A stretch of DNA of 64,000 bases from assembly GCA_963969395.1 (NCBI GenBank), contig OZ017801.1, forward strand, positions 13,211,611 through 13,275,610. Direction: 5' to 3'. Below are positions 2,391 through 34,512 of the stretch, piece after piece. Below the pieces are notes generated by a model. The model ran no database searches and was not told where the DNA came from. It was given only the letters and a program-made list of their open reading frames with translations. Positions within the stretch are counted from its first letter, which is position 1. Each line of letters begins with the position of its first letter. The DNA is from Pseudoscleropodium purum (Eukaryota; Streptophyta; Bryopsida; Hypnales; Brachytheciaceae). A program made the translations under genes and the position numbers.

Positions 2391-2515
2391 GGAGCATCCT
2401 AAGAGGTCGATATTACTCAAAAAGAGTGGTAACATTTAAAAAAAAAACAGCCTAATAATCACTGCTAAATGAGGATCAATGTAATTGATTTATCATTTTA
2501 TTTTAAAAAAAAATG

Positions 2516-2552
2516 TAAACCCTAAACCCTATACCCTAATTACCCTAAACCT
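2516..2552 (+). repeat. Short degenerate telomere-like tract (CCCTAAA)n
   Basis: About five copies of CCCTAAA-like units with variants (CCCTATA, CCCTAAT, CCCTAAA) lie in a row. This is the plant-type telomere repeat in interstitial position. It is too short and irregular to be a chromosome end. Confidence 0.6.
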
Positions 2553-5170: not shown

Positions 5171-5189
5171 TGGGTTTAGGGTCGCTTTA

Positions 5190-5415: not shown

Positions 5416-5624
5416 GATGGGCCATCTGCATTGTCACTTTTGCTTTGCCCCTTGTGAATGCAAGGTGGAGCGGAGAGCTTGGTGGTTCATCCTCCATTGG
5501 CTCCTTTCCGAGGCAAGGCAAGAGTGATTTATTGGGGCCTCCTTGTTGCCAATTTTTTGGACACTTGCGCGTGAATTCAATTTCAAATTAAAAAATTTGA
5601 TCTATATCAATTTCATTTGTCACG

Positions 5625-7061: not shown

Positions 7062-7444
7062 TTTTTTAATACATATCGTTGGCCGATGCCAGATGAACAT
7101 TTCCGCCATTTATATTAGATTGGTAGTGCAGAAATAGTAGTTGAATAGGTTATATAAGTATTAAAAATTAGTTTAGAAATATAGAGTTGGAATGAAAAAA
7201 ATTATATGTACAATTAGCCAAATGTGCACAATGTATGGTATTCTACATTAAATTGAATACATTTTGCCCATATTGATTATGTTTGTATTTGTGTTGATCT
7301 CGATTTTTTAAATAGTATATATATATATTTGAAGTCACAAACTTTTTTAGTTTGCCTTCTGAAAATGAATTGGAATTTTTTCATAGTTTCAAGACTATCA
7401 TGGACTCATGGTCAAACTTTATAATCTTTTAAATTGTTTAAAGA

Positions 7445-7612
7445 TTAAGGGAGTGACCGCGGGGCAGTTTGGGTAGGGCGGTCGGGGGAAATAGGGTCGT
7501 CAAAGCGGATGGGGCGGACGGGGTGACAAGCGGACGCTGCGTCTGCGGGGACCGCGAATGTCAGCGGACGCTGTAGACACAGCGTCTGCGTCCGGACGTC
7601 GTGTCAATCCTG
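7445..7612. repeat. GC-rich block, right flank of the kinase-like gene
   Basis: G-rich on the plus strand (GGGGCGGACGGGG, GCGGACGC). Its right edge at about 7610 coincides with the point where sequence shared with 29364 begins (ACCTTAGTG on this strand). The block is absent from the matching site at 29364, which suggests that 7610 is an element or rearrangement boundary. Confidence 0.6.
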
Positions 7613-8612
7613 ACCTTAGTGTTTTATTCCACAATATAAACCTATGGAGAAAATTTTTAAATCTTGTAAATGTATTTGGTATGAATATTTTTTGCTTTTT
7701 AATAAAAAAAATCTACAACAATTTCAAATTTCTACAATAAACTATGAATTTCTTACAACTTAGAGAATTTTGTGCAAAAAGGGAAGATTTTGGATAATAT
7801 TTTGACTTCCTATTTGATTAATTTCTAAAATAGATCATGATGTCATACTGTACCAAAAGGAATGACACACCTATAAACACTGGGCTAGTGACAATGGAAA
7901 TCATCCTTTTTGGTATTATATGACATCATCTACTTTTAAAAAAAATAAAAAAGTACTCATAGATGAACAATTTCATTTTTGTCCTACATAGAAATATTTT
8001 TTGTCATCCATTAGCTAAAAGAAAGCCTTAGCATTGTTTAACCACTAAACATCCAAATCCTTTTCTAAAATTGATGATATAAGAATTTTTTTATAAAATG
8101 CTATTTGGAAGAATATTTTGAAATTGATATATAGATAAAAGTTGTAGATTTTGAGTTTTAGATTCCATCCATAAGGTTAGATTCAGTAGTTACCTATCAC
8201 CAATATTTTATTATAAATTTTAAAAGGAAAATTTCAAAATTCCTTCTAAATTCAATTAGATGCAAAATATTATCATTTTTTGAGTAAAACTTCTTGGAAT
8301 GGATTTGAAATGAGGTTCTCTTGATATGGTGATTTTTTGAAATTTTGGTGTTCTTCAAATCTATGACCTCATTTTTGCAAATCCAATCTTGAATTAAAAT
8401 CAATGTATTTTTTGGCTTAGCACACTTCCACATTTGTAATTTTAGAAAAATATGAACTCTGGTAACACCAAATCCAATCATTGGATAGCACAACAACTTG
8501 ATAAAGTATCTCCACAAATGAGATGACTTTCATGCAAGCAGGATTGAGAAAGAAAACTGAATTTCAATCTCTTAGTCGTCCAAAAATTGGACGTCGGAGC
8601 GCTCCAGGGTTG
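7613..8612. repeat. Outer left part of the palindrome, more diverged
   Basis: This AT-rich stretch matches 28365-29364 in inverted orientation with scattered substitutions and small indels, clearly more diverged than the PAL-CHS arms. It contains a hairpin at 7840-7935 built from TGATGTCATA...ACCAAAAGGA and its reverse complement, and one copy (8085-8612) of a dispersed AT-rich repeat also present at 27362-27890, 28365-28900 and 49085-49620. There is no gene in it. Confidence 0.7.
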
Positions 8613-8759
8613 AGGGTTCAATCGAAGTGAGTATGGAGACCATATGGCTGCAGTTGGAGTAATTCTCACAACTCTGATTACTTCTGCAAAATAAAATAAG
8701 TTCTCTACAACTGCCGAGAAGGTGCACACGACATGCAGACCAGCTTCAACCAAATTTCA

Positions 8760-9416
8760 ACACATTGGACTGAAGGCCTGAAGCCGGAATGCCGGGGGAC
8801 CACGCGGACTTTGGGAGAAAAGTTCGACGAGAATCTCCGACCCACTTTGAACTTCCCTCCTTTCCATGCACTTTTTCAACAGTCTTCCCCAAATAATTGA
8901 AACTCCCGCGCGTTGTCAGAAAAACACAAAGGACAAGTCACTCTTCAGTTGCCCACATGCCCAATTGCGCAGTGAAGAGAGCCAATGCAACGACCACATT
9001 TCTTCACCACGAGTTGCCAATCCCGTCCACTTACAAATACACACCTTCGTGATCCCAATTCCTCATCTCAGGTCTATCGCACTTGGCAGCAGGGCATCAG
9101 CTTTCATAAACTTGGAGCGAGCCTGCAGCACATGTATCTGCAACCACATTTGCTAGACATTACGAAGAATACAGTTGCAAACACAATCGGCTAGCTGTTC
9201 GATAACATACCGATTCCATTCCTCCAAGTCGAAATTCTTAGTTACTTTGTTAGAAATTGCAGGGACGCTCGCTCACCGTGAACGCTTGAAGCTAAGGAGT
9301 CTAGCTGAATCAAGAACTTTGCTTGCAATTGAGTGAAGCGCTGATCTCGGGGGGCAGCTAGATCCTCGATTGATCATTGCTGAGACCACTCAGCAGGGAA
9401 CTCGAGGAAATATACC
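8760..9416 (+). promoter_or_regulatory. Upstream region and probable 5' leader of PAL copy 1
   Basis: This is mixed-composition DNA between the AT-rich repeat and the PAL start, kept nearly identical in the other arm (26518-27174). I see no convincing TATA box. A late-positioned leader with the start in a CC-ATGG context (9415-9420) is the simplest reading. Calling it a promoter rests on position only. Confidence 0.4.
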
Positions 9417-11600
9417 ATGGCAGCTGTGGAATTCGACGTCATGGCGTCGTCCCAGAGCTACATGAATGCGGGATCCGAACCCGCCTTGAAGAAACAGACC
9501 AGCTTCTGCAATAATAATGCTTCCAAAGCAGATGCTTCCCGAGCAGATCCGCTCAACTGGGCGAAGACGGCCGCGAAGTTGCAAGGAAATCATCTGGACG
9601 AGATCAAGCAGATGGTGGCGACGTACTTCGACTCGAACGAAGTGGCCATCGAGGGCGTCAATCTGACCGTGGGACAGGTCACGGCCATCGCACGCCGGCC
9701 TGATGTAGAGGTGGTGCTGGACGCGGCCAACGCCAAGGCCAGAGTGGACGAGTCCTCCAACTGGGTCTTGACGAAGATCATGAACGGCGGGGACATCTAC
9801 GGAGTGACCACGGGATTCGGCGCCACCTCCCATCGCCGCACGCAGCAAGGCGTGGAGCTGCAGCGCGAGCTCATTCGCTTTCTGAATGCGGGCGTGCTGG
9901 TGAAGGGGCACTCACTGCCCGCGGAGACCACACGCGCGGCCATGCTGGTGCGCACCAACACCTTGATGCAGGGCTACTCCGGGATCCGTTGGGAGATTCT
10001 GGAGGCCATGGAGAAGCTGCTGAACGCGCACGTCACGCCCAAGCTGCCGTTGCGTGGGACGGTCACCGCTTCCGGGGATTTGGTGCCCTTGTCTTACATT
10101 GCCGGACTGCTCACCGGCCGACCCAACTCGCGAGCTTGCACTCCAGATGGCCGGGAGGTTTCGGCGTTGGAGGGACTGCGGATGGCGGGCGTGGAGAAGC
10201 CGTTCGAGCTGCAGCCCAAGGAGGGGCTGGCGTTGGTGAACGGGACCGCCGTGGGGTCGGCATTGGCCTCCACGGTGTGCTTCGACGCCAACGTGCTGGC
10301 GCTGCTTGCGGAAGTGCTATCCGCCTTGTTTTGTGAAGTGATGCAAGGGAAGCCGGAATTCGCCGATCCCTTGACGCACAAGCTGAAGCATCACCCGGGG
10401 CAGATGGAAGCCGCAGCGGTGATGGAGTGGCTGCTGGACGGGAGCGACTTCATGAAAGCCGCGGCCAAGCTCAACGAAACCGATCCCTTGAAGAAGCCCA
10501 AGCAGGATCGATACGCGCTGCGCACTTCGCCCCAGTGGCTGGGTCCCCAAATCGAGGTGATCCGCACCGCCACGCACGCCATCGAGCGCGAGATCAACTC
10601 CGTGAACGACAACCCCATCATCGACGCCGCGCGGGGGATCGCGCTGCACGGGGGCAACTTCCAGGGCACCCCCATCGGCGTCTCCATGGACAACATGCGC
10701 CTGGCGGTGGCGGCCATCGGCAAGCTCATGTTTGCGCAGTTCTCCGAGCTCGTGAACGACTACTACAACAACGGCCTGCCTTCCAACTTGAGCGGGGGAC
10801 CCAACCCCAGCCTGGACTACGGCATGAAGGGCGCCGAGATCGCCATGGCGTCGTATCTGTCCGAGCTCAACTACCTGGCCAACCCCGTCACCACCCACGT
10901 CCAGAGCGCGGAGCAGCACAACCAGGACGTGAACTCGCTGGGCTTGGTGTCCGCGCGCAAGACGGAGGAGGCCGTGGAGATTCTGAAGCTCATGAGCTCG
11001 ACCTTCCTGGTGGGGCTGTGCCAAGCCATCGACCTGCGCCATGTGGAGGAGACCATGCAGTCCGCCGTGAAGCAGGTGGTGTTGCAGGCGGCGAAGAAGA
11101 CGCTGTTCATGGGCCAGGACGGCTCCCTCCTTCCGTCGCGCTTCTGCGAGAAGGACCTTTTGCTGGTGGTGGAGCGTCAGCCCGTGTTCTCTTACATCGA
11201 CGACGCGTCCTCCGACACGTACCCGTTGATGGAGAAGCTGCGAGGCGTGCTGGTGAGCCACGCCCTCAAAGACGGCTCCCGCTCCGTGTTTGAGCAGATC
11301 CCCGTGTTCGAGGCCCAAGTGCAAGAGCGTCTGCGCACTGTGGTGCCCTTGGTGCGGGAAGCTTACGACAAGAAGGGCCTTTCGGCGGTGCCCAACAGGA
11401 TTGAGTCTTGCAGGACGTACCCGCTGTACCAATTCGTGAGGTCGGAGCTCGGTACGCAATTGCTGTCCGGCTTGCGAACTGTGTCACCCGGTACTGAAAT
11501 TCAGAAGGTGTTCGAGGCGATGTCGGAGGGGAAGCTGATTCGCCCTCTTTTGCAGTGCGTGCAAGGATGGACTGGCGCTCCTGGCCCATTCCCCTTGTGA
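9417..11600 (+). CDS. PAL: Phenylalanine ammonia-lyase, copy 1 (intronless, 727 aa)
   Basis: The enzyme removes ammonia from L-phenylalanine to give trans-cinnamate, the entry step of phenylpropanoid and flavonoid synthesis, in the cytosol. The protein is full length for plant PAL (usually about 700-740 residues). It carries the Ala-Ser-Gly triad (218-220, [17 protein letters not shown]) that cyclises to the MIO electrophile, the catalytic Tyr128 loop ([12 protein letters not shown]), NDNPIID, and the Phe155-Leu156 pair (LIRFLNAG) that marks Phe rather than Tyr preference. The start at 9417 has a good CCATGG context and fits the length. The whole gene is one exon. It faces CHS copy 1 tail to tail 2.8 kb away and is mirrored by 24334-26517. 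It differs from that copy by Thr142, the residue usual in the SHRRT motif. Confidence 0.97.
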
Positions 11601-14411
11601 TTTCCTCTAACAATGATACGATCTCTCGTTCCGTTAGTCGCTTGGCCACTGGTACATTCACACATAAGTAGAGATTCTTTCACTCCTAGCTGGAGTAGTC
11701 ATCGACAAACAATTTTCGAGTCACAAGTTGTGACTCCTGTACATTTGATGAGCATCGGGTTCCACATTGGGCCGTGCTCCAAGAGCATTTTATAACATTC
11801 TTTGGACGTCACAATTGGCGTTTACGTTTTGAATTGAGAAATTTTTTCGAGCTAGTGTCTGAGCATGCTTGGAATTTTAGTTTTAATACTGTAGCGTCTG
11901 ATGACATGCAGTGACCGCATGAAGAAGTTCTCATGAGTTGGTATTTAGACCAGTTTCGTCGTAATACCATTCCCTTCCCAAGATGAACACGAGAATAGTT
12001 GCATCTTTGAATAGCCCGACAGCTGGGAAATGAACGCCAGGGAGAAATGAAAGCAGTATTCTGGTCTGATGGACGGGAAATTGAAATGAATCGACATCTG
12101 CTGTGCTGCTCACATGGTCACGTTTTCTTGAGTCACAATTCTGAATCTCAACGGTCAACGAGAAACACAAGGAATCCACATAGCCATTTTCTGCAGAATT
12201 CCGCAAATTGATCAGGTGTTAATGAGCCTAGGTCATAGACCAGGTTCAAGTTAATAATGTGTCTTGAGTCGAGCAGAGAAGGAATAATCCAGTACAACTC
12301 AACAATTGGCAAAGCCGATAAGTTCAAATTATTGAAAATGCTCTACACTGGAACATGCCTCCGAACATATCAGTTCAGGGTAAGTTCTAATTTTCTCATC
12401 TCTGATGTCACCTCCGTGTTCGGTGCTTATCTCCGCTATCCTCATATAGAACGGTTCAATATCGTCAAATCTTCCTAGCTTATCCAAAAGCATGACTGTC
12501 AGTTGTAAGTTGAGCTCAAGCTCCGGACAATCTGGGCCTAGAACCTGTTCAGAATTGTCTGCACTAAAATGTGAATCAAAATGCGCTGGGGATTAAGCTC
12601 TTGTGACTGCACCAAACAATCAACTGTTGGAATTACAATTGTTCAATCCTTCACACAACTGTTACGAAAACAACACCTTAATGAGAGTACTTCAAAATTC
12701 TACGCATGATAGATTTCAAGAGGGGGTAATCTAGGTATTACAGTTATGCGACTAAGGAAATCATTATCTGCATTGTAAACCAGTGCGCACGATGCGCGAA
12801 TTACAATGAAAGAGTCTCATTATGGCATAAAAACCCAACGGCCCAAGGGCACTGTTTGCTCAAGTATGCATGTGCTGATTTAGAGCTTACAAAGAATATA
12901 ATCCAGGAAATAATTTCGGTGCACAGGTTGATTCACAACACGTCTACATCCCTTCATAGAACGTTTACAAGTGCTCATGGCTTGAAAATGAAAGAGTCAT
13001 TCCTGAAGTATTGCTACATGCAAAAACTGGAAAAGTGGAAACTCGCCAATGTTCAATGGTCTCTCTTTGCTCTTGATTTCAACCTAGTGAATTATCAAGC
13101 TCCCATGAAGGAGAGCTTGACCAAATTATAACCAGTTCTGGAGGATTCATTATGGAGTCAATTATTCATTCCAATCTATCTTAATAAAATTAAAGATAAC
13201 GTGGGGTGAGCACTAAATTTACTACCTGATGTATGTTCACCGCAATGCCAAATTTGAATTCGAGAAATACCTCAAATTGCAGAAAACACTGTTGAATTTT
13301 CCAAATCAACTATCGGGGTACTCACTTCCACATTGCGTCATCAATATATCAGTACTTGAGTAGGGAAGGACTCACCCCATAAATTGGCTCAATTCCATGA
13401 AAATGGAGTGCTGCACGCTCCAGCAAGCAAGGAAATGCAACAATTTAGGGAGCCGGGAGAGGGATGGGGTGGAAATCCTAGTTGGGCGGTGTTATGCACG
13501 AAACGTAATTTGCACATCTGCTGACACAGCAAGCTTCCAGTGAATGTCATATTGAAGAGAGCCAGAACCGATTTCAAACGGATACGAGGATGTGAAGAAA
13601 CTGAATGAAATCGGCTAGACAAATACTGTAAAGCGAATTGAGGATATCGGACGAAACCGAATGAGATCGGTCCCGAAAAGAAAAAGGAGGAGGGAAAACG
13701 ATCATATTCAGCATCATGGACCTCGGTGGAAATCAGGTTGAACAGTTGCACCGAATTTAATTTCGACTTGGGAGCGACCAATTTCAATCATTTTAGTAAA
13801 TAGTTGTAACCCACATTGGCAATCCATACCTCGGCACGCACGTTCCTGGGATGCTGGACATCCACATGTTTCGATGTCTGCAACACGCACTTCACTCGTC
13901 CACAAGATCTGAAAATCTCAAATGGATTCTGAAGTTCAGGGAAAACGAGAGTAGAACCGTTCAGAGATCGATCTGAGTCTGCAACAAGATGTGAATCAAG
14001 TTGCTCGAGATCCAGCTCTTGTACTTGCACCCTACAACCGACTGGATCAAGGTCCTCCATTCCCGGATTCAACTGTGACGAACGCAAACAACGTACAGAC
14101 TGAAAATAATGCAACTGATGTGCGGCGGGAATGCAAATGGTGAGTGGCATTCCGGAAACTTGTGGAATAATTTGTTGGTAACAATTGCTCCTGCTGGCTG
14201 CGGATTCCAATTGGAAATCGCAATGCACAAAGCTGCGCATGAATTTATGGGGTTGCAACCAATGCAACACATGAATGGAACTAGGGCTAACTAAGAGCAG
14301 TGTCGATCCAATGTGGACCTCTGTACACTTGTCGTACACTGATCATGTGATCGGCACCAAAAATGATTTCACTTGAACAATGCACCAAAAATCGAAGCGT
14401 CGGGACCGCGC
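11601..14411. other. PAL-CHS convergent intergenic region, left arm
   Basis: This 2.8 kb holds the 3' ends of both genes and unexplained DNA of moderate GC, mirrored at 21523-24333 (described there, including two minus-strand protein-like frames, here at 13788-14339 and 11931-12206). No known gene family is recognised. Confidence 0.5.
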
Positions 14412-15873
14412 CTAGTGATTGGCTGCGGCCCGGAGCACCAACACCTCCAGCGTCAGTCCAGGTCCGAAGCCGATGAAGAAGCCGAAGTCGCTGCCCTCCC
14501 CGAGCGTCGAAGAACCCAACTTCAACGATCTCTGACGAATCTGGTCCAACACGAACAACACCGAAGAGCTCGACATGTTGCCGTACTCCAGCAGCACGTC
14601 GCGGCTGCCCTGCATCTTGTCCTTCGACAGCTGCAGCTTGGCCTCCACCTGGTCCAGAATGGCGGGGCCTCCGGGGTGCACGGCCCAGAACATCTCGTTC
14701 CACGCAGGGGACCCCACGCACTTGCGCGCCTCCGTCAGAAACTTCTCGATGTTCTTGGAGATCAGCCCGGGAACGTCCTTCATCAAGTGGAAGATGAGCC
14801 CCGCTTCCGTGAGATGGCCGTCGATGGCGCCGTCACTTTCAGGCAAGATGGTCTCCCCGGCCCAGTGGACCTCGAACAAAGCCTTCTCCACTTGCGGCTT
14901 GGGGTCCGCCCCGACCACGTACACGCCCGCGCCGTCCCCGAACAGCGCCGAGCCGACCAGCCCGTCCAAGTGATTCTCGCTCGGGGCGCGGTAGGTCACG
15001 GCCGTGACCTCGCTGCACACGGCCAGCACGCGCGCGTTCTTGTTGTTCTCGGCCAAGTCCTTGGCCACGCGCAACACCGAGGCGCCGCCGAAGCAGCCGG
15101 TTTGGTACATCATGACGCGCTTGACGGTGGGCTTGAGGCCCAGCAGCTTGGCCAGCGCGTGGTCGGCGCCGGGCATGTTCACGCCGCTGGTGGTGGCGAA
15201 GACGATGTGCGTGATGTCGGACTTGCGTCCGCCCCACTCCTTGATGGCCTTGAGCGCGGCCTCGGCGGCGAGCTTGGGCACCTGCACGACGACGATGTCG
15301 TGTCTTGCGTTGAGCGAGGGCTCCATGTAGGTGCAGATTCCCGGGTTGGCCTTGAGCACCTCCTCCGTCAAGAACAGGTGTCGCTTCCGGATGCCCGACT
15401 TGTCGCCTGTGGAATGGGATCACACGTACAAATCGCGTCAATTTCATTTGAGGGACCACCCCACAAGCACCTTTCTTGAACCAATTCATTCGACTCAAAT
15501 GAAATTCAGTAGACTATGAAATGCAGCTTGCGAATCCAATTTTCCTCCGCTCGATCACCCAATTGAGCTACTTCACGGGGAATCATCGGCAAGCAATTAA
15601 GCCAGGTGGGTCCGAATGAGCATTCAGGCAGGTGAAGTGAATTATTTAATTAGGTCTATTCGAGATGCATGGTCACTTACAGATGCGCTTGAACTTGGCC
15701 TTGAGCGCCTCCTTCTCGCTGCAGTTGGTGATGTTGAAGAAGAAATCCGGGTACTCCGATTGCAGGAACTCCGTGGGAGGCACGGCAGTGCCGATGCCCA
15801 ACACGCACGCCGGCCCGTCCGCACGTGGCTGTCCCCTGGGGAGTGCAGCGCTCACCGCCGTCTGGGAAGCCAT
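14412..15873 (-). CDS. CHS: Chalcone synthase, copy 1 (two exons, 395 aa)
   Basis: A type III polyketide synthase that condenses p-coumaroyl-CoA with three malonyl-CoA to naringenin chalcone, the committing flavonoid step. Exon 1 is 15873-15681, the intron 15680-15407 (GT...AG, 274 bp) and exon 2 15406-14412. The intron splits the Cys65 codon after its first base, the position conserved in plant CHS genes. The catalytic triad is present: Cys169 (YQTGCFGG), His308 (WAVHPGGPA) and Asn341 (YGNMSS). Pocket residues Thr199, Thr202, Phe220, Gly261, Leu268 and Phe270 match those of classical CHS (numbering five higher than alfalfa CHS2). The C-terminal [10 protein letters not shown] is intact. The protein is identical to copy 2. 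It shares a head-to-head arrangement with copy 2 across the palindrome centre and lies tail to tail with PAL copy 1. Another type III PKS specificity is possible but less likely. Confidence 0.96.
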
Positions 15874-16105
15874 TGCGACGAGTTCGCTCCTACGGACCGA
15901 AGTGGGAAGTGCGTGCTACTCGCGCTCCAAGTCTCCCGTTCGGAAGTCGAATGTTCTGTGATTCACTAGATCCAATTATCCGAATGAGAACTTTGTAACT
16001 TGGAATCGAATCGAAGGCCTTCAACTATACGAAACGTTTGATCGAGTGTGATCTCCAGTAAGTTGATGTTTGCTGTTGTGATGGTTGGATGTAGGATTTC
16101 AGGCT

Positions 16106-16112
16106 CTTTATA
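16106..16112 (-). promoter_or_regulatory. TATA box of CHS copy 1
   Basis: TATAAAG on the minus strand, in the context CACTATAAAGAGCCTGAAAT, 233 bases before the start codon. The same context is found before copies 2 and 3 although the rest of the copy 3 promoter has diverged, which supports function. Confidence 0.7.
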
Positions 16113-16559
16113 GTGCGTGTGGAGAGCGAGGCGGAGTGAGAGTCTGCGGCGTCACTGTTGCGGAAGAGCGTGGAATGGTGGGAAGTCGTGGGGACGAGTC
16201 CCGTGGAGAAAACCAGGAATGGCCCACGAGGGAGAATGCGGATAAAGCAGGTCAGCGTCGTGAACAGGTCGGGCCTTAAGCTGCCCATTCCTTATTAGAA
16301 TATTAGAATGGAGTCAACTCCTGCTTTCCTCGTGGTCCCTTGTTGTTGACATCTGTTTGAAATTTCTCGGTTCTCTGTTGTTCTCTTCCAAATGCGATGG
16401 CTTCTTTATTGGCTGTGATTTCAAGTAACTTTGTGAGACCCCCACTCACTGCTCCAAAGAAGATGCGGAGCACCACATTAACCCCTAAATGCCCCAAGTC
16501 GTTTTCAAGCCGCTTCTTGGAATTTGCTCTAAATGGAACAAACCACAAATTCAAACTAA

Positions 16560-16915
16560 GGTAGAAGTACCTATTTCAGACAAGCTTTCTGAAATTACTT
16601 TGTAGGCTAACGTATTATGGACAACAAGTGGATGCATTGGTCATTGAGAAAGATTCATGGTTTGTACCTTCTCATCTAGTCATCTTTCTTCCTTGTTGGC
16701 CTAGGGGAAAGTGCCAAATTTACCACAGTAGTTGAGTCTATGAAACTAGAATGGCTGTAGGTACAAAATCCACTTTTATTTTTAGAGAATTTTTTTTTTT
16801 TTTTTTGGCATTCTTCTACAACCTTCTTTTTGCACACATTGAACTTAGTTTGTCATGACTTTCCCACATCATCCAATTTGAAATGTTTAAGTTATCCAAA
16901 GTAGGTACTTCTACC
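16560..16915. mobile_element. 356-bp TIR element (MITE-like) with TAA target duplication, only in the left arm
   Basis: Begins GGTAGAAGTACCTA and ends with its exact reverse complement TAGGTACTTCTACC. It is flanked by TAA at 16557-16559 and 16916-16918. The mirror site near 19378 lacks the element and reads as a single uninterrupted target. The element encodes nothing. A 3-bp TWA-type duplication fits the PIF/Harbinger superfamily, but the terminal bases are not diagnostic. Confidence 0.85.
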
Positions 16916-16918
16916 TAA

Positions 16919-19377
16919 GATATGTTAGAGATTACATAGGAAAAGAAAACACAACAATATCACTTATAGATTGAAAGATTATAATGTTTCATGATGAAGG
17001 TGGTAAAGTTGTGAGGGTGATTTGAAGTCTTTCAATCTTCTTCACCTTTCAAATTTAAAAAACGCTACAAAAAATGCTATAGAAAATTCTAAAGAAACGC
17101 CCACTCAATGTTTCTCGCAAAGATCCTCTTTCAATCCTCTTTTCACATGCTAAATCTAAAAATCCATTCCCGAAGCAATACAAGGTTAAAGGGCATAACA
17201 TGCATAACCTCAATCAATTGATGGCTTCTCAAAATGAATAGAAACAAAGTGTAGTTTGTTTCATGTCTTTATTCCATCTCTTGTTCCATTGTCAATCTAT
17301 TAGGATGGTTTTGCTGTTTATTTTTGGTTTTTGAACAAGCATGGAGGCTAAAAAGTGGTTGTACATTGGATGATATTCAAGATTTTTGTAGAATTGAAAA
17401 CTACATGTCATTGGTCTCTAAATTGGATCATTTTTGGCAAAGTGTCTTGTTTAAAGGTCTCATCTTTTTAGATTTCAAAGACAAATCATAACTTCACTCT
17501 ATCAACTTCACTATTTGGTAAATTCAAACATACTCTTGATATTATTTACACCTTCCCTAGGAATGACCCTTCTTCAATAAGAAGATTCTAAAACATACGC
17601 ATTATTATAGAATATAATAACTGAATTTTTGAAAAAATTAAACTTTGATGTGTAGATAACAAACTAAATGAATTGCCATGACATTTTTTTATCATTTTTA
17701 CATGAATCAACTAATATGGATCCCTTCTATTTTTGATAATTTTGAAAAAACTTCAAATTTGTGGGGGGCTAGAAGGGCCATTTGAAGGCCATTCCCATTG
17801 TTGTTCCCTTGGCAATCAGAGAATGATTGTTGTTAGATTTTTTTTTTGAATTTTTTGAATTTTCTTTAAAAATGAAAAAATGAAAAAAATAAATAAAAAA
17901 GTATTTGAAATTTTTTTAATGAGGTGGCAATCATTGTGCCACATTAGGCAACTGGTGTGGTGAGTTTCTAGAGTCTAAAAACCTCAGAAAATTCATAGCC
18001 CTCCAAAGCAACTGAAATTACTAAATATATTCTAATGCTATGATATACAACTTCCATAACCTTTTTGAAGTTTGAAGTTTGAATATAAGAATAGAAATGT
18101 TGAACAAAAATTTTAGAGTTAATCTATATGGTTAAATTTGAATTTTTTATATAGAATTTTCATCTTATTCTAATTGTGATACAAATTAGATTTGATAAGC
18201 TTTGTTTCTTTAAATGTTCTCAAATTCAAGAAGATTATTGTTCATAGCTTAAATTCAACTTTAGATAAAGGAACACAAATTGCCAAAATACATTGTCTAC
18301 ACAAAAATCTATAAATTTGTCATTCTCATAAGTAGAAAAGTCATCGTTCAGGTTGTTCTCATGTGTTCCAAGGTCAATTAAAGTTTTGAAATAAGGTTTC
18401 TTAACTAAAAAAATTTGACAATTTTGACCCCCAAACAAGGATACTTGCAAGAAAGACTAGTCAATTTTGTAGTGTTTTGCCAAAAATTGGGGTTTTAGCA
18501 TTGAGTACTATGAGTACTAGAAGACAAAGCTCTAGCATCAATATAGAGCCATCGATCATATTATAGATTTTTTGTATTATCACCAAGTGTCCTTCATGTG
18601 TACTACATAGTCTTATTTGTATCCACTAGTATTGTTTCCTAGTTTTTCACAAAAAAGAAAAATGTTAAGGTTTTAATTTATAATAAATCTATCATATTGA
18701 AACACCCCCCCTTAAAATTGGCAATTTGTAAGGACTTGATGGTGATTAGATTTCACCAAAAGATAGAGCTCAAACCATCTTCAATGTTGGAAAATGCATG
18801 TGCAAATGAACCCTATTTCACTATTTGTACAACCGTAGAAGACATAAAAAAGTTTATTTCAAATTCTTGGGGACTTTCAAGACTTCTTCATTAGTTGATC
18901 CTAATGAAGATAGAGACAATTGTCAAGTAATTTCAAGTTTATGATACTCTAACTTCCAAAAAGAACTCATAGGAAAAAAAAACTTTATCCACATTTGTAT
19001 TCCCACCCTTTGAGAATCTAAATTTAAAAGTGAAAACTAGTCACTAAAGTTTAAGAAAAGATGAAAGATTCTAAAACTGTAGAATAGATATTAAGAAGCC
19101 ATCAATTGATTGGGGTTATGCATGTTATGCCCTTTAACCTTTTATTGTTTTGGTAATGGGTTTTTTAGATTTGTCATATGGAAAGAGGATTGAAAGAGGA
19201 TCATTGCAAGAAACAATGGGCATTTATTGTAGCATTCTTTGAAGAGTTCTGTAGATGTGACAAGTGAAAAGAAGATTGAAAGAATTCAAATCTACCTCAC
19301 AATCAAACATTATAATCTCTCAATCTATAAGTGATATTGTTGTATTTTCATTTCCCATATACTCTCTAATATGTGTA
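16919..19377. other. Palindrome centre (spacer between the two CHS promoters)
   Basis: AT-rich, without genes. 16919-17240 matches 19095-19377 in inverted orientation at much lower identity than the arms (shared words include CAATTGATGGCTTCT and GGGCATAACATGCATAACC). 17750-17995 resembles a decayed copy of the CATTAGAAGA repeat family (GGGGGGCTAGAAG, GGTGGCAATCATTGTGCCAC). The rest holds nothing I can name. Confidence 0.6.
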
Positions 19378-19821
19378 GTTTGAATTCGTGGTTTGTTCGA
19401 TTTAGAGCAAACTCCAAGAAGCGGCTTGAAAACGACTTGGGGCATTTAGGGGTTAATGTGGTGCTCCGCATCTTCTTTGGAGCAGTGAGTGGGGGTCTCA
19501 CAAAGTTACTTGAAATCACAGCCAATAAAGAAGCCATCGCATTTGGAAGAGAACAACAGAGAACCGAGAAATTTCAAACAGATGTCAACAACAAGGGACC
19601 ACGAGGAAAGCAGGAGTTGACTCCATTCTAATATTCTAATAAGGAATGGGCAGCTTAAGGCCCGACCTGTTCACGACGCTGACCTGCTTTATCCGCATTC
19701 TCCCTCGTGGGCCATTCCTGGTTTTCTCCACGGGACTCGTCCCCACGACTTCCCACCATTCCACGCTCTTCCGCAACAGTGACGCCGCAGACTCTCACTC
19801 CGCCTCGCTCTCCACACGCAC

Positions 19822-19828
19822 TATAAAG
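19822..19828 (+). promoter_or_regulatory. TATA box of CHS copy 2
   Basis: TATAAAG in the context CACTATAAAGAGCCTGAAAT, 233 bases before the ATG at 20061. Upstream, 19736-19800 contains a block (CCACGCTCTTCCG, AACAGTGACGCCGCAGAC) that is also kept before CHS copy 3 and is a candidate regulatory core. Confidence 0.7.
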
Positions 19829-20060
19829 AGCCTGAAATCCTACATCCAACCATCACAACAGCAAACATCAACTTACTGGAGATCACACTCGATCAAACGT
19901 TTCGTATAGTTGAAGGCCTTCGATTCGATTCCAAGTTACAAAGTTCTCATTCGGATAATTGGATCTAGTGAATCACAGAACATTCGACTTCCGAACGGGA
20001 GACTTGGAGCGCGAGTAGCACGCACTTCCCACTTCGGTCCGTAGGAGCGAACTCGTCGCA

Positions 20061-21522
20061 ATGGCTTCCCAGACGGCGGTGAGCGCTGCACTCCCCAGGG
20101 GACAGCCACGTGCGGACGGACCGGCGTGCGTGTTGGGCATCGGCACTGCCGTGCCTCCCACGGAGTTCCTGCAATCGGAGTACCCGGATTTCTTCTTCAA
20201 CATCACCAACTGCAGCGAGAAGGAGGCGCTCAAGGCCAAGTTCAAGCGCATCTGTAAGTGACCATGCATCTCGAATAGACCTAATTAAATAATTCACTTC
20301 ACCTGCCTGAATGCTCATTCGGACCCACCTGGCTTAATTGCTTGCCGATGATTCCCCGTGAAGTAGCTCAATTGGGTGATCGAGCGGAGGAAAATTGGAT
20401 TCGCAAGCTGCATTTCATAGTCTACTGAATTTCATTTGAGTCGAATGAATTGGTTCAAGAAAGGTGCTTGTGGGGTGGTCCCTCAAATGAAATTGACGCG
20501 ATTTGTACGTGTGATCCCATTCCACAGGCGACAAGTCGGGCATCCGGAAGCGACACCTGTTCTTGACGGAGGAGGTGCTCAAGGCCAACCCGGGAATCTG
20601 CACCTACATGGAGCCCTCGCTCAACGCAAGACACGACATCGTCGTCGTGCAGGTGCCCAAGCTCGCCGCCGAGGCCGCGCTCAAGGCCATCAAGGAGTGG
20701 GGCGGACGCAAGTCCGACATCACGCACATCGTCTTCGCCACCACCAGCGGCGTGAACATGCCCGGCGCCGACCACGCGCTGGCCAAGCTGCTGGGCCTCA
20801 AGCCCACCGTCAAGCGCGTCATGATGTACCAAACCGGCTGCTTCGGCGGCGCCTCGGTGTTGCGCGTGGCCAAGGACTTGGCCGAGAACAACAAGAACGC
20901 GCGCGTGCTGGCCGTGTGCAGCGAGGTCACGGCCGTGACCTACCGCGCCCCGAGCGAGAATCACTTGGACGGGCTGGTCGGCTCGGCGCTGTTCGGGGAC
21001 GGCGCGGGCGTGTACGTGGTCGGGGCGGACCCCAAGCCGCAAGTGGAGAAGGCTTTGTTCGAGGTCCACTGGGCCGGGGAGACCATCTTGCCTGAAAGTG
21101 ACGGCGCCATCGACGGCCATCTCACGGAAGCGGGGCTCATCTTCCACTTGATGAAGGACGTTCCCGGGCTGATCTCCAAGAACATCGAGAAGTTTCTGAC
21201 GGAGGCGCGCAAGTGCGTGGGGTCCCCTGCGTGGAACGAGATGTTCTGGGCCGTGCACCCCGGAGGCCCCGCCATTCTGGACCAGGTGGAGGCCAAGCTG
21301 CAGCTGTCGAAGGACAAGATGCAGGGCAGCCGCGACGTGCTGCTGGAGTACGGCAACATGTCGAGCTCTTCGGTGTTGTTCGTGTTGGACCAGATTCGTC
21401 AGAGATCGTTGAAGTTGGGTTCTTCGACGCTCGGGGAGGGCAGCGACTTCGGCTTCTTCATCGGCTTCGGACCTGGACTGACGCTGGAGGTGTTGGTGCT
21501 CCGGGCCGCAGCCAATCACTAG
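20061..21522 (+). CDS. CHS: Chalcone synthase, copy 2 (two exons, 395 aa)
   Basis: Exon 1 is 20061-20253, the intron 20254-20527 and exon 2 20528-21522. The reading frame, splice sites and protein are the same as CHS copy 1, with one silent G/A difference noticed in exon 1 (Gly20 codon). It has the catalytic Cys169, His308 and Asn341 and all pocket residues listed for copy 1. It carries Tyr203 and Ala205 in the TYRAP motif where flowering-plant CHS has Phe and Gly, a substitution I recall from moss CHS. The promoter is near-identical to that of copy 1 out to 19378, so the two genes should be expressed alike unless chromatin differs. It lies tail to tail with PAL copy 2. Confidence 0.96.
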
Positions 21523-24333
21523 GCGCGGTCCCGACGCTTCGATTTTTGGTGCATTGTTCAAGTGAAATCATTTTTGGTGCCGATCACATGATCAGTGTAC
21601 GACAAGTGTACAGAGGTCCACATTGGATCGACACTGCTCTTAGTTAGCCCTAGTTCCATTCATGTGTTGCATTGGTTGCAACCCCATAAATTCATGCGCA
21701 GCTTTGTGCATTGCGATTTCCAATTGGAATCCGCAGCCAGCAGGAGCAATTGTTACCAACAAATTATTCCACAAGTTTCCGGAATGCCACTCACCATTTG
21801 CATTCCCGCCGCACATCAGTTGCATTATTTTCAGTCTGTACGTTGTTTGCGTTCGTCACAGTTGAATCCGGGAATGGAGGACCTTGATCCAGTCGGTTGT
21901 AGGGTGCAAGTACAAGAGCTGGATCTCGAGCAACTTGATTCACATCTTGTTGCAGACTCAGATCGATCTCTGAACGGTTCTACTCTCGTTTTCCCTGAAC
22001 TTCAGAATCCATTTGAGATTTTCAGATCTTGTGGACGAGTGAAGTGCGTGTTGCAGACATCGAAACATGTGGATGTCCAGCATCCCAGGAACGTGCGTGC
22101 CGAGGTATGGATTGCCAATGTGGGTTACAACTATTTACTAAAATGATTGAAATTGGTCGCTCCCAAGTCGAAATTAAATTCGGTGCAACTGTTCAACCTG
22201 ATTTCCACCGAGGTCCATGATGCTGAATATGATCGTTTTCCCTCCTCCTTTTTCTTTTCGGGACCGATCTCATTCGGTTTCGTCCGATATCCTCAATTCG
22301 CTTTACAGTATTTGTCTAGCCGATTTCATTCAGTTTCTTCACATCCTCGTATCCGTTTGAAATCGGTTCTGGCTCTCTTCAATATGACATTCACTGGAAG
22401 CTTGCTGTGTCAGCAGATGTGCAAATTACGTTTCGTGCATAACACCGCCCAACTAGGATTTCCACCCCATCCCTCTCCCGGCTCCCTAAATTGTTGCATT
22501 TCCTTGCTTGCTGGAGCGTGCAGCACTCCATTTTCATGGAATTGAGCCAATTTATGGGGTGAGTCCTTCCCTACTCAAGTACTGATATATTGATGACGCA
22601 ATGTGGAAGTGAGTACCCCGATAGTTGATTTGGAAAATTCAACAGTGTTTTCTGCAATTTGAGGTATTTCTCGAATTCAAATTTGGCATTGCGGTGAACA
22701 TACATCAGGTAGTAAATTTAGTGCTCACCCCACGTTATCTTTAATTTTATTAAGATAGATTGGAATGAATAATTGACTCCATAATGAATCCTCCAGAACT
22801 GGTTATAATTTGGTCAAGCTCTCCTTCATGGGAGCTTGATAATTCACTAGGTTGAAATCAAGAGCAAAGAGAGACCATTGAACATTGGCGAGTTTCCACT
22901 TTTCCAGTTTTTGCATGTAGCAATACTTCAGGAATGACTCTTTCATTTTCAAGCCATGAGCACTTGTAAACGTTCTATGAAGGGATGTAGACGTGTTGTG
23001 AATCAACCTGTGCACCGAAATTATTTCCTGGATTATATTCTTTGTAAGCTCTAAATCAGCACATGCATACTTGAGCAAACAGTGCCCTTGGGCCGTTGGG
23101 TTTTTATGCCATAATGAGACTCTTTCATTGTAATTCGCGCATCGTGCGCACTGGTTTACAATGCAGATAATGATTTCCTTAGTCGCATAACTGTAATACC
23201 TAGATTACCCCCTCTTGAAATCTATCATGCGTAGAATTTTGAAGTACTCTCATTAAGGTGTTGTTTTCGTAACAGTTGTGTGAAGGATTGAACAATTGTA
23301 ATTCCAACAGTTGATTGTTTGGTGCAGTCACAAGAGCTTAATCCCCAGCGCATTTTGATTCACATTTTAGTGCAGACAATTCTGAACAGGTTCTAGGCCC
23401 AGATTGTCCGGAGCTTGAGCTCAACTTACAACTGACAGTCATGCTTTTGGATAAGCTAGGAAGATTTGACGATATTGAACCGTTCTATATGAGGATAGCG
23501 GAGATAAGCACCGAACACGGAGGTGACATCAGAGATGAGAAAATTAGAACTTACCCTGAACTGATATGTTCGGAGGCATGTTCCAGTGTAGAGCATTTTC
23601 AATAATTTGAACTTATCGGCTTTGCCAATTGTTGAGTTGTACTGGATTATTCCTTCTCTGCTCGACTCAAGACACATTATTAACTTGAACCTGGTCTATG
23701 ACCTAGGCTCATTAACACCTGATCAATTTGCGGAATTCTGCAGAAAATGGCTATGTGGATTCCTTGTGTTTCTCGTTGACCGTTGAGATTCAGAATTGTG
23801 ACTCAAGAAAACGTGACCATGTGAGCAGCACAGCAGATGTCGATTCATTTCAATTTCCCGTCCATCAGACCAGAATACTGCTTTCATTTCTCCCTGGCGT
23901 TCATTTCCCAGCTGTCGGGCTATTCAAAGATGCAACTATTCTCGTGTTCATCTTGGGAAGGGAATGGTATTACGACGAAACTGGTCTAAATACCAACTCA
24001 TGAGAACTTCTTCATGCGGTCACTGCATGTCATCAGACGCTACAGTATTAAAACTAAAATTCCAAGCATGCTCAGACACTAGCTCGAAAAAATTTCTCAA
24101 TTCAAAACGTAAACGCCAATTGTGACGTCCAAAGAATGTTATAAAATGCTCTTGGAGCACGGCCCAATGTGGAACCCGATGCTCATCAAATGTACAGGAG
24201 TCACAACTTGTGACTCGAAAATTGTTTGTCGATGACTACTCCAGCTAGGAGTGAAAGAATCTCTACTTATGTGTGAATGTACCAGTGGCCAAGCGACTAA
24301 CGGAACGAGAGATCGTATCATTGTTAGAGGAAA
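21523..24333. other. CHS-PAL convergent intergenic region, right arm, with protein-like frames of unknown origin
   Basis: This region contains plus-strand open stretches with protein-like composition: 21595-22146 (for example VGCRVQVQELDLEQLDSHLV and TLVFPELQNPFEIF), about 23441-23605 (LLDKLGRFDDIEPFYMRIAE) and 23728-24003 (RILLSFLPGVHFPAVGLF). A possible splice donor (GAG|GTATGG) lies at 22104. A word set near 21900-21970 (GTGCAAGTACAAGAGCT, TTGATTCACATCTTGTTGCAGAC) recurs in diverged form near 23320-23375, suggesting an old internal duplication. I do not recognise a family and cannot build a full gene; it could be a relic gene or long 3' ends. Confidence 0.3.
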
Positions 24334-26517
24334 TCACAAGGGGAATGGGCCAGGAGCGCCAGTCCATCCTTGCACGCACTGCAAAAGAGGGCGAATCAGC
24401 TTCCCCTCCGACATCGCCTCGAACACCTTCTGAATTTCAGTACCGGGTGACACAGTTCGCAAGCCGGACAGCAATTGCGTACCGAGCTCCGACCTCACGA
24501 ATTGGTACAGCGGGTACGTCCTGCAAGACTCAATCCTGTTGGGCACCGCCGAAAGGCCCTTCTTGTCGTAAGCTTCCCGCACCAAGGGCACCACAGTGCG
24601 CAGACGCTCTTGCACTTGGGCCTCGAACACGGGGATCTGCTCAAACACGGAGCGGGAGCCGTCTTTGAGGGCGTGGCTCACCAGCACGCCTCGCAGCTTC
24701 TCCATCAACGGGTACGTGTCGGAGGACGCGTCGTCGATGTAAGAGAACACGGGCTGACGCTCCACCACCAGCAAAAGGTCCTTCTCGCAGAAGCGCGACG
24801 GAAGGAGGGAGCCGTCCTGGCCCATGAACAGCGTCTTCTTCGCCGCCTGCAACACCACCTGCTTCACGGCGGACTGCATGGTCTCCTCCACATGGCGCAG
24901 GTCGATGGCTTGGCACAGCCCCACCAGGAAGGTCGAGCTCATGAGCTTCAGAATCTCCACGGCCTCCTCCGTCTTGCGCGCGGACACCAAGCCCAGCGAG
25001 TTCACGTCCTGGTTGTGCTGCTCCGCGCTCTGGACGTGGGTGGTGACGGGGTTGGCCAGGTAGTTGAGCTCGGACAGATACGACGCCATGGCGATCTCGG
25101 CGCCCTTCATGCCGTAGTCCAGGCTGGGGTTGGGTCCCCCGCTCAAGTTGGAAGGCAGGCCGTTGTTGTAGTAGTCGTTCACGAGCTCGGAGAACTGCGC
25201 AAACATGAGCTTGCCGATGGCCGCCACCGCCAGGCGCATGTTGTCCATGGAGACGCCGATGGGGGTGCCCTGGAAGTTGCCCCCGTGCAGCGCGATCCCC
25301 CGCGCGGCGTCGATGATGGGGTTGTCGTTCACGGAGTTGATCTCGCGCTCGATGGCGTGCGTGGCGGTGCGGATCACCTCGATTTGGGGACCCAGCCACT
25401 GGGGCGAAGTGCGCAGCGCGTATCGATCCTGCTTGGGCTTCTTCAAGGGATCGGTTTCGTTGAGCTTGGCCGCGGCTTTCATGAAGTCGCTCCCGTCCAG
25501 CAGCCACTCCATCACCGCTGCGGCTTCCATCTGCCCCGGGTGATGCTTCAGCTTGTGCGTCAAGGGATCGGCGAATTCCGGCTTCCCTTGCATCACTTCA
25601 CAAAACAAGGCGGATAGCACTTCCGCAAGCAGCGCCAGCACGTTGGCGTCGAAGCACACCGTGGAGGCCAATGCCGACCCCACGGCGGTCCCGTTCACCA
25701 ACGCCAGCCCCTCCTTGGGCTGCAGCTCGAACGGCTTCTCCACGCCCGCCATCCGCAGTCCCTCCAACGCCGAAACCTCCCGGCCATCTGGAGTGCAAGC
25801 TCGCGAGTTGGGTCGGCCGGTGAGCAGTCCGGCAATGTAAGACAAGGGCACCAAATCCCCGGAAGCGGTGACCGTCCCACGCAACGGCAGCTTGGGCGTG
25901 ACGTGCGCGTTCAGCAGCTTCTCCATGGCCTCCAGAATCTCCCAACGGATCCCGGAGTAGCCCTGCATCAAGGTGTTGGTGCGCACCAGCATGGCCGCGC
26001 GTGTGGTCTCCGCGGGCAGTGAGTGCCCCTTCACCAGCACGCCCGCATTCAGAAAGCGAATGAGCTCGCGCTGCAGCTCCACGCCTTGCTGCATGCGGCG
26101 ATGGGAGGTGGCGCCGAATCCCGTGGTCACTCCGTAGATGTCCCCGCCGTTCATGATCTTCGTCAAGACCCAGTTGGAGGACTCGTCCACTCTGGCCTTG
26201 GCGTTGGCCGCGTCCAGCACCACCTCTACATCAGGCCGGCGTGCGATGGCCGTGACCTGTCCCACGGTCAGATTGACGCCCTCGATGGCCACTTCGTTCG
26301 AGTCGAAGTACGTCGCCACCATCTGCTTGATCTCGTCCAGATGATTTCCTTGCAACTTCGCGGCCGTCTTCGCCCAGTTGAGCGGATCTGCTCGGGAAGC
26401 ATCTGCTTTGGAAGCATTATTATTGCAGAAGCTGGTCTGTTTCTTCAAGGCGGGCTCGGATCCCGCATTCATGTAGCTCTGGGACGACGCCATGACGTCG
26501 AATTCCACAGCTGCCAT
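24334..26517 (-). CDS. PAL: Phenylalanine ammonia-lyase, copy 2 (intronless, 727 aa)
   Basis: Mirror copy of the PAL at 9417-11600: same length, same MIO triad Ala218-Ser219-Gly220, catalytic Tyr128 and Phe155-Leu156 selectivity pair. The one amino-acid difference I find is Met142 in place of Thr142, in the SHRRT motif that is nearly constant in plant PAL; it comes from a single C-to-T change (ACG to ATG) at 26092-26094. Met here might alter activity slightly or be neutral; the rest of the active site is intact. The gene is a single exon and converges on CHS copy 2. Promoter and leader (26518-27174) are nearly identical to copy 1. Confidence 0.96.
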
Positions 26518-27321
26518 GGTATATTTCCTCGAGTTCCCTGCTGAGTGGTCTCAGCAATGATCAATCGAGGATCTAGCTGCCCCCCGAGATCAGCGCTTCA
26601 CTCAATTGCAAGCAAAGTTCTTGATTCAGCTAGACTCCTTAGCTTCAAGCGTTCACGGTGAGCGAGCGTCCCTGCAATTTCTAACAAAGTAACTAAGAAT
26701 TTCGACTTGGAGGAATGGAATCGGTATGTTATCGAACAGCTAACCGATTGTGTTTGCAACTGTATTCTTCGCAATGTCTAGCAAATGTGGTTGCAGATAC
26801 ATGTGCTGCAGGCTCGCTCCAAGTTTATGAAAGCTGATGCCCTGCTGCCAAGTGCGATAGACCTGAGATGAGGAATTGGGATCACGAAGGTGTGTATTTG
26901 TAAGTGGACGGGATTGGCAACTCGTGGTGAAGAAATGTGGTCGTTGCATTGGCTCTCTTCACTGCGCAATTGGGCATGTGGGCAACTGAAGAGTGACTTG
27001 TCCTTTGTGTTTTTCTGACAACGCGCGGGAGTTTCAATTATTTGGGGAAGACTGTTGAAAAAGTGCATGGAAAGGAGGGAAGTTCAAAGTGGGTCGGAGA
27101 TTCTCGTCGAACTTTTCTCCCAAAGTCCGCGTGGTCCCCCGGCATTCCGGCTTCAGGCCTTCAGTCCAATGTGTTGAAATTTGGTTGAAGCTGGTCTGCA
27201 TGTCGTGTGCACCTTCTCGGCAGTTGTAGAGACCTTATTTTATTTTGCAGACGTAATCAGAGTTGTGAGAATTACTTCCAACTGCAGCCATATGGTCTCC
27301 ATACTCACTTCGATTGAACCC
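26518..27321 (-). promoter_or_regulatory. Upstream region of PAL copy 2
   Basis: Near-identical mirror of 8613-9416. No TATA box is evident. Divergence from the left arm rises beyond about 27230 and the match is lost at 27321. Confidence 0.4.
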
Positions 27322-28364
27322 TTAACCCCTGAACGTCCAGATCCTTTACCAAAATTGAGGATTTGGGAAAAATCGTATAAAGTGCTATTTGGAAGAATAT
27401 TTTAGGATTGACATACAAATAAAAGTTGTAGATATTGAATTTTAGATTCCATCCGTACGGTTAGATTCACTACTGCAATCACATTTATTCTTTTATAAAT
27501 TTTGAAAGGGAAATTTCAAAATTACTTCTAAATTCAATTACAAGCAAAATATTATCATTTTTTGAGTAAAACTTGTTGGAATGGATTTGAAATGAGGGTT
27601 TTTTTATATGGTGATTTTTAGAAATTTTTGTGTTCTTTTAATCTAGCAGCTCACTTTTGCAAATCCAATTTTGAACTAAAATCACTGCAATTTTTGGCTT
27701 GACACATTTCTACATTTGTAATTTTAGAAAAATATAAACTCTTGTAACACCAAATCCAACCATTGGATAGGACAACAACTTGATAAAATATCTTCACAAA
27801 TTAGATGACTTTCATCCAAGCAATAATGAGAAAGAAAACCAAATTCCAATCTGTTCATTGTCCAGAAATTGGATGTCGAAGCGCTCCAGGGTTAATGGAC
27901 GAGCCTGTGACCAATTTTCTGTATTTTTTTTTTGAGATGTAATTACATGTCTTCTCCAAGTCGGAAGAAATTCTGAGTTCTTTGGTGAAAATTTGAAGTT
28001 TCTTTGAAATTTCGAGTAAAAAGTGAAAAATATTTATTCCAAATACAAAATATGTTTTAAAAAAATGAAATTTCCCTATAGCCTTATATTGTATATTAAG
28101 GGGAAAAAACCATGGTGCAATATTGTTTCTGTCGTGTCATTCTTAAATGAGGAAATCAGCTCTCTGTGGTAATAGGCCCAATGTTTGAATTTCATTTATA
28201 TACTCATGTCGAGGAATTTTTTTAAATTATCAAATTATGAGAGAAACTAAACCTGATGATTTGTGTTTCTTTAGTAGGTCTCAAATTTTTAAAGAACTTT
28301 TATTATGGCTTAAATTGAACTTTAGAGAAAGGAGTACAATTTGTCAAAACACACTACATGAAGA
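27322..28364 (+). repeat. 1.04-kb block present only in the right arm; dispersed AT-rich repeat copy
   Basis: The block separates 27321 from 28365, which are adjacent in the left arm (8613/8612). It begins TTAACCCCTGAACG. Bases 27362-27890 match 8085-8612 in direct orientation (shared GTGCTATTTGGAAGAATATT, GAAGCGCTCCAGGGTT), and 27955-28220 match 29190-29460. I see no clear terminal repeats or target duplication, so it may be a rearranged repeat rather than a simple insertion. Confidence 0.6.
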
Positions 28365-29364
28365 CCCTGGAGCGCTCCGACGTCCAATTTTTGGACTACT
28401 AAGAGATTGAAATTCAATTTTCTTTCTCAATCCTGCTTGCATGAAAGTCATCTAATTTGTGGAGATACTTTATCAAGTTGTTGTGCTATCCAATGATTGG
28501 ATTTGGTGTTACTAGAGTTCATATTTTTGTAAAATTATAAATGTGGAAGTGTGCCAAGCCAAAAAATACATTGATTTTAATTCAAAATTGGTTTTACAGA
28601 AATGAGGTCATAGATTTGAAGAACACCAAAATTTCAAAAAATCACCATATCAAGAGAACCTCATTTCAAATCCATTCCAAGAAGTTTTACTCAAAAAATC
28701 ATAATATTTTGCTTCTAATTGAATTTTGAAGGAATTTTGAAATTTCCCTTTTAAAATTTATAATAAAATATTGGTGATAGCTAACTATTGAATCTAACCA
28801 TATGGATGGAATCTAAAACTCAAAATCTACAACTTTTATCTATATATCAATTTCAAAATAGTCTTTCAAATAGCATTTTATAAAAAAATTCTTGAATTGT
28901 CAATTTCAGAAAAGGATTTGGATGTTTAGTGGTTAAACAATGCTAATGCTTTTTTATAGCTAATGGATAACAAAAAATATTTCTATGTAGGACAAAAATG
29001 CTATTGTTCATCTATAAGTATTTTTCAATTTTTTTTAAAAGTAGATGATGTCATATAATACCAAAAAGGATGATTTCCATTGTGACTAGCCCAATGTTTA
29101 TAGGTGGTCATCCCTTTTGGTACAGTATGACATCACGATCTACTTTAGAAATCAATCAAATAGGAAGTCAAAATATTATCCAAAATCTTCCCTTCTTGCA
29201 CAAAATTCTCTAAGTTGTAAGAAATTCATAGTTTATTGTAGAAATTTGAAATTGTTGTAGATTTTTTTATTAAAAAGCAAAAAATATTCATACCAAATAC
29301 ATTTACAAGATTTGAAAAATTTCTCCATAGGTTTATATTGTAGAATAAAACACTAAGGTGTATT
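28365..29364. repeat. Outer right part of the palindrome
   Basis: Inverted match to 7613-8612, with several percent divergence and an offset of about 1045 bases relative to the main arms. It contains the mirrored hairpin (29040-29140) with TGATGTCATA and ACCAAAAAGGATGA. The match stops at ACACTAAGGT (about 29364), where the left arm has the GC-rich block. Confidence 0.75.
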
Positions 29365-34505: not shown

Positions 34506-34512
34506 TTTTGAA

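Follow-up and report, generated by a model that had tools for sequence, protein, structure and literature searches.

Two consecutive PAL-CHS palindromes in the moss Pseudoscleropodium purum form a gene cluster that is probably homogenised by gene conversion

We have analysed a stretch of 64,000 nucleotides (the window) from the moss Pseudoscleropodium purum, C45:13211611-13275610 (contig OZ017801.1), together with 225 kb of the same contig joined around it, and searched the 313 Mb genome (52 contigs) for related sequences. The window carries genes for phenylalanine ammonia-lyase (PAL) and chalcone synthase (CHS) arranged as a palindrome, here called P2, and a second and larger palindrome, P1, lies directly upstream. 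Together P1 and P2 hold six CHS and four PAL genes in about 150 kb of gap-free sequence. Probably they constitute a single locally amplified PAL-CHS cluster, built as two consecutive palindromes, that homogenises itself by gene conversion. Positions below are those of the window, and negative coordinates count bases before its start on C45.

Self-BLAST of the window gives a single inverted match of 7,953 columns with 99.849% identity, between a left core arm (8607..16558) and a right core arm (19376..27328). A spacer of 2,817 bp (16559..19375), delimited by self-BLAST and alignment, separates the arms, and the length and identity of the match exclude a chance origin. The palindrome of 18.7 kb with two copies of PAL and CHS that a first-pass annotation had read from the letters of the window is thus confirmed. 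Its "handful of substitutions" amounts to 11 in a global alignment, with one 1-bp indel in addition; seven fall at 8612-9841, no more than 1.3 kb from the outer end, three at 16522-16547, no more than 40 bp from the inner end, and one at 15814. The rule that all landmarks obey x + y = 35934, with no net indel, holds inside the indel point, but in the outermost 51 bp, beyond the indel, the sum is 35935. The edges of the spacer (16925-17235 and 19088-19369) form a short inner mirror layer of 78% identity. The 225 kb contains no N, and hence no marked gap within the palindrome. This core stands at the centre of P2, which in full spans about 48.6 kb. The earlier account lacks a third CHS of the window, the outer layer of mirror symmetry, the insertion of a 9.6-kb hAT-type element in the left half and the 98-kb palindrome upstream.

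The PAL gene of the left arm (9417..11600, + strand) is a single exon of 727 codons; its product matches the aromatic lyase domain PF00221 along its length (E 9e-150) and is close to a solved plant PAL (PDB 1w27, E 4e-299). Among the matches listed, the closest named protein is from another moss, Ceratodon purpureus (92%), and the translation contains what we take to be the Ala-Ser-Gly motif. The right-arm PAL (24334..26517, - strand, 727 amino acids) is its mirror, with two coding differences, one silent and one Thr-to-Met at site 9841/26093; Thr is found in the left-arm PAL and in the eight PAL proteins compared. The right-arm CHS, c5 (20061..21522, + strand), has exon 1 at 20061-20253, a GT-AG intron at 20254-20527 and exon 2 at 20528-21522, and encodes 395 amino acids with both CHS domains (PF00195 and PF02797). 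Its closest PDB relatives, 9jl6, 9kah and 6dx7, are labelled "Chalcone synthase", and the translation shows Cys, His and Asn residues at what we presume to be their places. The left-arm copy c4 (14412..15873, - strand; exon 1 15681-15873, exon 2 14412-15406) mirrors the c5 model and encodes the same protein. The third CHS of the window, c6 (35864..37325, + strand; exon 1 35864-36056, exon 2 36331-37325), lies outside the core.

P1 extends over 98 kb (C45:13,099,166-13,197,539). Its two arms of 41.4 kb (-112444..-70992 and -55542..-14071) enclose a spacer of 15.4 kb and differ by 81 substitutions, 73 of them in the outermost kilobase and only 8 in the remaining ~40 kb. Both structures are palindromes by the same measure, long inverted arms of very high identity around a spacer (99.85% over 7.95 kb in P2). 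The gene order along C45 is CHS(-) PAL(+) in one half of P1 and PAL(-) CHS(+) in the other, followed downstream by CHS(-) PAL(+) CHS(-) and CHS(+) PAL(-) CHS(+) in the halves of P2. The left arm of P1 also contains an open reading frame (ORF) resembling a NIF-type phosphatase (L015:6283-7110), which is hence expected in both arms.

The case for gene conversion rests on tracts that are more alike than are the introns or the homologous flanking sequences of those copies. The four PAL genes of this cluster are open frames of 727 amino acids, 99.9-100% identical; the six CHS genes share the same 335-codon exon-2 frame, 100.0% identical pairwise, and their spliced models have no internal stops. Exon 2 (995 bp) shows 0/995 differences in each of the six within-cluster pairs tabulated, whereas the introns are 211 bp long in P1 and 274 bp in P2, with 43/203 mismatches (21%) and 79 gap positions. 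With exon 2 identical and the introns diverged, conversion can replace the exon and leave the intron as it was. As a stand-in for a sister species we used a second PAL-CHS cluster at 9.4 Mb on C45. At fourfold sites a P1 and a P2 copy differ at 0/174 positions and either differs from a 9.4-Mb copy at 30/172; intron and fourfold sites contrast strongly between P1 and P2 (Fisher's test, 3e-13). Purifying selection on the protein is not expected to cause such identity at silent sites. In its intron P1 resembles the 9.4-Mb copy (86.1%) more than it does P2 (78.8%), while exon 2 shows the reverse. Tract ends are abrupt: between P1 and P2 no 100 bp of the PAL region within 8784-11783 has more than 2 differences and the next 100 bp has 22/91, and c5 and c6 are identical for 2.3 kb and then differ at 31/100. 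The pattern recurs on contig C41: the arms of an inverted PAL pair at 11.43 Mb (L044/L045, C41:11428104-11442068) are 97.9% identical over 3.4 kb and 100% in coding sequence, and the two CHS genes of that contig's PAL-CHS cluster differ at 47/226 intron sites and 15/1004 exon-2 sites.

The mirror symmetry of P2 continues outward from its core at lower identity. On the left, 7613..8610 is 95.3% identical, inverted, to 28364..29359 (self-BLAST), and aligned pieces of the right outer layer (29352..37863) are 91-97% identical to their mirror partners at -1977 to -10748, before the start of the window. The segment 7613-8610 consists of 420 bp and a dispersed repeat of about 570 bp. Copies of the repeat lie at 8033-8606, 27322-27893, 28364-28941 and 49094-49608; it is found at the outer edge of the core arms and occurs at no fewer than 38 further places, mostly at 85-88% to the query. 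We considered and rejected the idea that this flank is a mere repeat; among 40 candidates scored of 1,955, the 420-bp part matches at the two flank positions only, and its sequence is likely to be rare in the genome. Two insertions occupy one half each. The first, of ~1.04 kb (27329..28363), is found in the right half and contains a further copy of the ~570-bp repeat. The second is a hAT-type element of 9,589 bp in the left half, starting at -1976 and occupying 1..7612 of the window (- strand), with PF05699 (hAT dimerisation) and DUF659 domains; it has the matching ends CAGGGTTGACA and TGTCAATCCTG and an 8-bp target duplication, ACCTTAGT, of which the right half keeps one unoccupied copy. An insertion on one side with an empty site opposite indicates that the palindrome is older than the insertion and that the two halves are distinct places. 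The element also has ORFs at 5601-7058, possibly captured or nested sequence; for one of them a weak match to protein kinases stays under the Pfam cut-off.

The first-pass annotation had also offered a very recent event as an explanation of the paired copies. This is not borne out, since the mirror goes on outward at 91-97% past one-sided insertions and the copies show gene conversion. A diverged mirror layer on the same axis and gene conversion together mean that the age of the arms cannot be read from their near-identity, and we rejected a dating of the palindrome by its 0.15% arm divergence, which conversion resets. Elsewhere in the window, strand composition is strongly skewed at 42001-46000, where two 2-kb steps have AT skews of 0.21 and 0.11 and GC skews of -0.12 and -0.14. 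Two self-complementary, hairpin-like segments (54356-55105, 88%; 60085-60301, 84%) have relatives at 30.4-30.8 kb. Scanning the window against Rfam and for tRNA genes gave no matches.

Across the genome, 35 matches to PF00221 were grouped by us into 22 PAL places, and the subset with E < 1e-30 of 51 matches to PF00195 into 25 CHS-type places; both counts are lower bounds. Ten of the 22 PAL are linked to CHS, in three clusters (C45:13.1, C45:9.4 and C41:11.4-11.65 Mb), at each of which, as in plant biosynthetic gene clusters, non-homologous genes of one pathway thus lie side by side. No other enzyme of the pathway was found among eight selected translations of the region, most of whose ORFs were left unscanned. 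Of the ten linked PAL, eight stand head to head with a CHS, as CHS(-) followed by PAL(+), and the other two have CHS upstream in the same direction. Start-to-start distances of the head-to-head pairs in the C45:13.1 cluster are 9,377, 9,379, 18,163 and 9,347 bp, the third being 8.6 kb without the hAT-type element and the fourth the distance from the right-arm PAL to c6. They are 6,175 and 10,030 bp at C45:9.4 Mb, and on C41 about 2,960 bp at 11.43 Mb and 1,011 bp at 11.65 Mb, where the PAL starts were taken from profile-match and coding frames because a search by ATG pattern missed them. The physical linkage of PAL and CHS proposed earlier is therefore genuine, both genes lying inside copied segments and the linkage recurring at two other places. 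The pair within the core arm, which the earlier account took as the cassette, is convergent (tail to tail) and is not the recurring unit; the recurring form is head to head. We rejected the convergent pair as the ancestral cassette because of the orientation in the other clusters.

Twelve PAL are unlinked, four of them at C46:18.7 Mb, and 11 of the 12 have no nearby CHS in the list of 51 matches. The PAL at C43:15613711 lies ~26.5 kb from a weak CHS fragment (C43:15586941-15587207, two in-frame stops, E 5e-15), perhaps a fourth, decayed linkage. The four PAL genes at C46:18.72-18.77 Mb form a PAL-only array in mixed orientations, and C41:25.72-25.78 Mb carries a CHS-only array of five genes, likewise in mixed orientations; these arrays may be further palindromes.

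The first-pass annotation suggested selection for co-inheritance, dosage or co-regulation. Quite possibly, however, PAL and CHS became neighbours by chance on a single occasion and have since been copied together with the segment, with no selection for linkage itself. With the 22 PAL and 25 CHS-type places of the 313-Mb genome grouped by us into about 11 loci each, roughly 0.04 coincidental co-locations within 50 kb are estimated, so that such an event is rare but could have happened once. One origin would suffice for PAL, since in a protein tree made by a quick method (24 rows) the ten linked genes form one group with support of 94, with C43:13.6 outside it. For CHS a single origin is neither shown nor excluded; in the exon-2 tree the two C45 clusters group together (95/97) and C41 is placed at an open fork. 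Against chance, the pair has been retained in three clusters, between which the PAL genes differ by 6-13%, and neighbouring PAL and/or CHS genes are reported in Marchantia too (PMC7010833). Synteny was considered as proof of a whole-genome duplication and set aside: a flanking HEAT-repeat gene, PP2A-A-like by eye, has one other match, on C41 but about 10.6 Mb from the PAL-CHS cluster there. Locus tags in other bryophytes are only suggestive of linkage. In Riccia fluitans they place a PAL (R1flu_015507) near a CHS-type gene (R1flu_015513), whose product is equally close (88%) to proteins named stilbenecarboxylate synthase and Marchantia chalcone synthase. In Ceratodon the tags are M758_6G204400 for PAL, which groups apart from the PAL studied here, and KC19_6G202900 for CHS.

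On the reading of a self-homogenising cluster, a head-to-head CHS-PAL pair would have been copied by inverted duplications, events to which the observed order and orientation point. Transposons then entered single halves, as is seen here. Whole arms within a palindrome would have been overwritten by conversion, as a near-identical core inside diverged mirror layers suggests, and gene-sized tracts have been converted between the palindromes, as the tract structure shows. The outcome is a set of ten genes, intact and almost identical, that encode the first enzymes of phenylpropanoid and flavonoid synthesis.

Several observations sit uneasily with this reconstruction. In P2 the convergent CHS is closer to each PAL than is the head-to-head CHS. 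Homogenisation is incomplete: the tabulated pairs from within the cluster have 0-7 differences at the 193 sites of exon 1, and the two CHS copies of P1 differ at 34/275 positions in their 3' flanks. The intron tree that groups P1 with the 9.4-Mb cluster has support of only 92/92, and one clade uniting all six introns is not rejected by an approximately unbiased (AU) test (p 0.065). The near-identity of P1 over 40 kb, taken alone, could be explained by one recent inverted duplication. The contrast between exon and intron stands independently of the intron tree.

It is unlikely, although there is a precedent, that the cluster is a natural RNA-silencing locus in which inverted CHS copies would yield double-stranded RNA that tunes CHS expression. 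The soybean I locus works in this way (PMC3804491), and here two CHS genes stand head to head around a 2.8-kb spacer. However, none of the six CHS models contains an internal stop, and the core copies point away from the axis, so that a hairpin would require read-through; both features lower the likelihood of silencing here. Still less probable are very recent inverted duplications with no gene conversion, in which near-identity would simply reflect youth. The core arms of P2 and the 8 substitutions in ~40 kb of P1 fit such youth, but it cannot yield core arms of 99.85% identity where the mirror layer that surrounds them on the same axis has 91-97%, and it is already contradicted between P1 and P2, where it cannot produce identical exons beside introns that are 21% diverged. 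Least credible of all is an assembly artefact in which an arm was duplicated by way of reads that fold back or by double use of a graph node: the near-identical ~40 kb of the P1 arms does exceed ordinary accurate long reads, but the 225 kb has no N, the arms differ by substitutions and an indel and the surrounding layers by 3-9% and by one-sided insertions, one with its 8-bp target duplication, and paralogous copies elsewhere occur in other orders and orientations.

The benefit of a self-homogenising cluster is likely to be the dosage of a pathway that screens against ultraviolet (UV) light and stress, combined with protection of the copies from decay. Dosage of UV-screen synthesis seems the most likely benefit because 14 PAL genes, and also CHS, are reported to rise under UV-B in the moss Pohlia nutans (PMC9247546). 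More speculatively, and we hold it doubtful, the head-to-head CHS-PAL pair might be an old bryophyte metabolic unit, and palindromes with exon-sized conversion might keep high-dosage enzyme genes intact in mosses, which are mainly haploid and have no allelic partner; the repair role of Y and W palindromes would then have been recruited for metabolism. In this cluster a plant whose haploid phase is long has kept a natural record of gene conversion that can be read copy by copy, and the product of the genes concerned is known and can be measured. The question whether palindromes protect genes outside sex chromosomes can be asked here of a concrete example. The cluster is also a warning that arm identity is unfit for dating such duplications, and where assemblies collapse such arms, too few PAL and CHS copies may have been counted in mosses.

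A search of the literature on PAL-CHS linkage and on palindromes in mosses and other plants, which was not exhaustive, found no description of this arrangement. Paired converting palindromes, inverted CHS arrays and neighbouring PAL and/or CHS genes are known separately; in the sources consulted, their combination and an exon-by-exon resolution of tracts were not found. The W chromosome of Salix purpurea also carries palindromes with gene conversion (PMC7023750), which are likewise consecutive; the willow pair spans ~200 kb, and its four arms have highly conserved stretches and evidence of conversion. That system is sex-linked and contains a cytokinin response regulator, whereas here the genes encode metabolic enzymes of a moss. 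The soybean I locus, a 27-kb inverted-repeat CHS cluster (PMC3804491), shares natural inverted repeats of CHS genes with the present cluster, and copy number in the soybean repeats is altered by non-allelic recombination (PMC3804491, PMC6710647). It acts by small interfering RNA (siRNA) silencing, and the abstract parts consulted leave PAL unmentioned; here the coding frames are intact. The Marchantia account of neighbouring PAL and/or CHS genes (PMC7010833), in the part consulted, leaves unstated how many PAL lie beside CHS and does not mention palindromes or conversion. In Physcomitrella, concerted evolution has been proposed for highly similar tandem genes (PMC3045890, citing its ref. 74). 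Those arrays resemble the present cluster as local groups of very similar moss genes for which gene conversion is proposed, but the proposal is stated there in general, while in Pseudoscleropodium purum the tract ends are resolved copy by copy.

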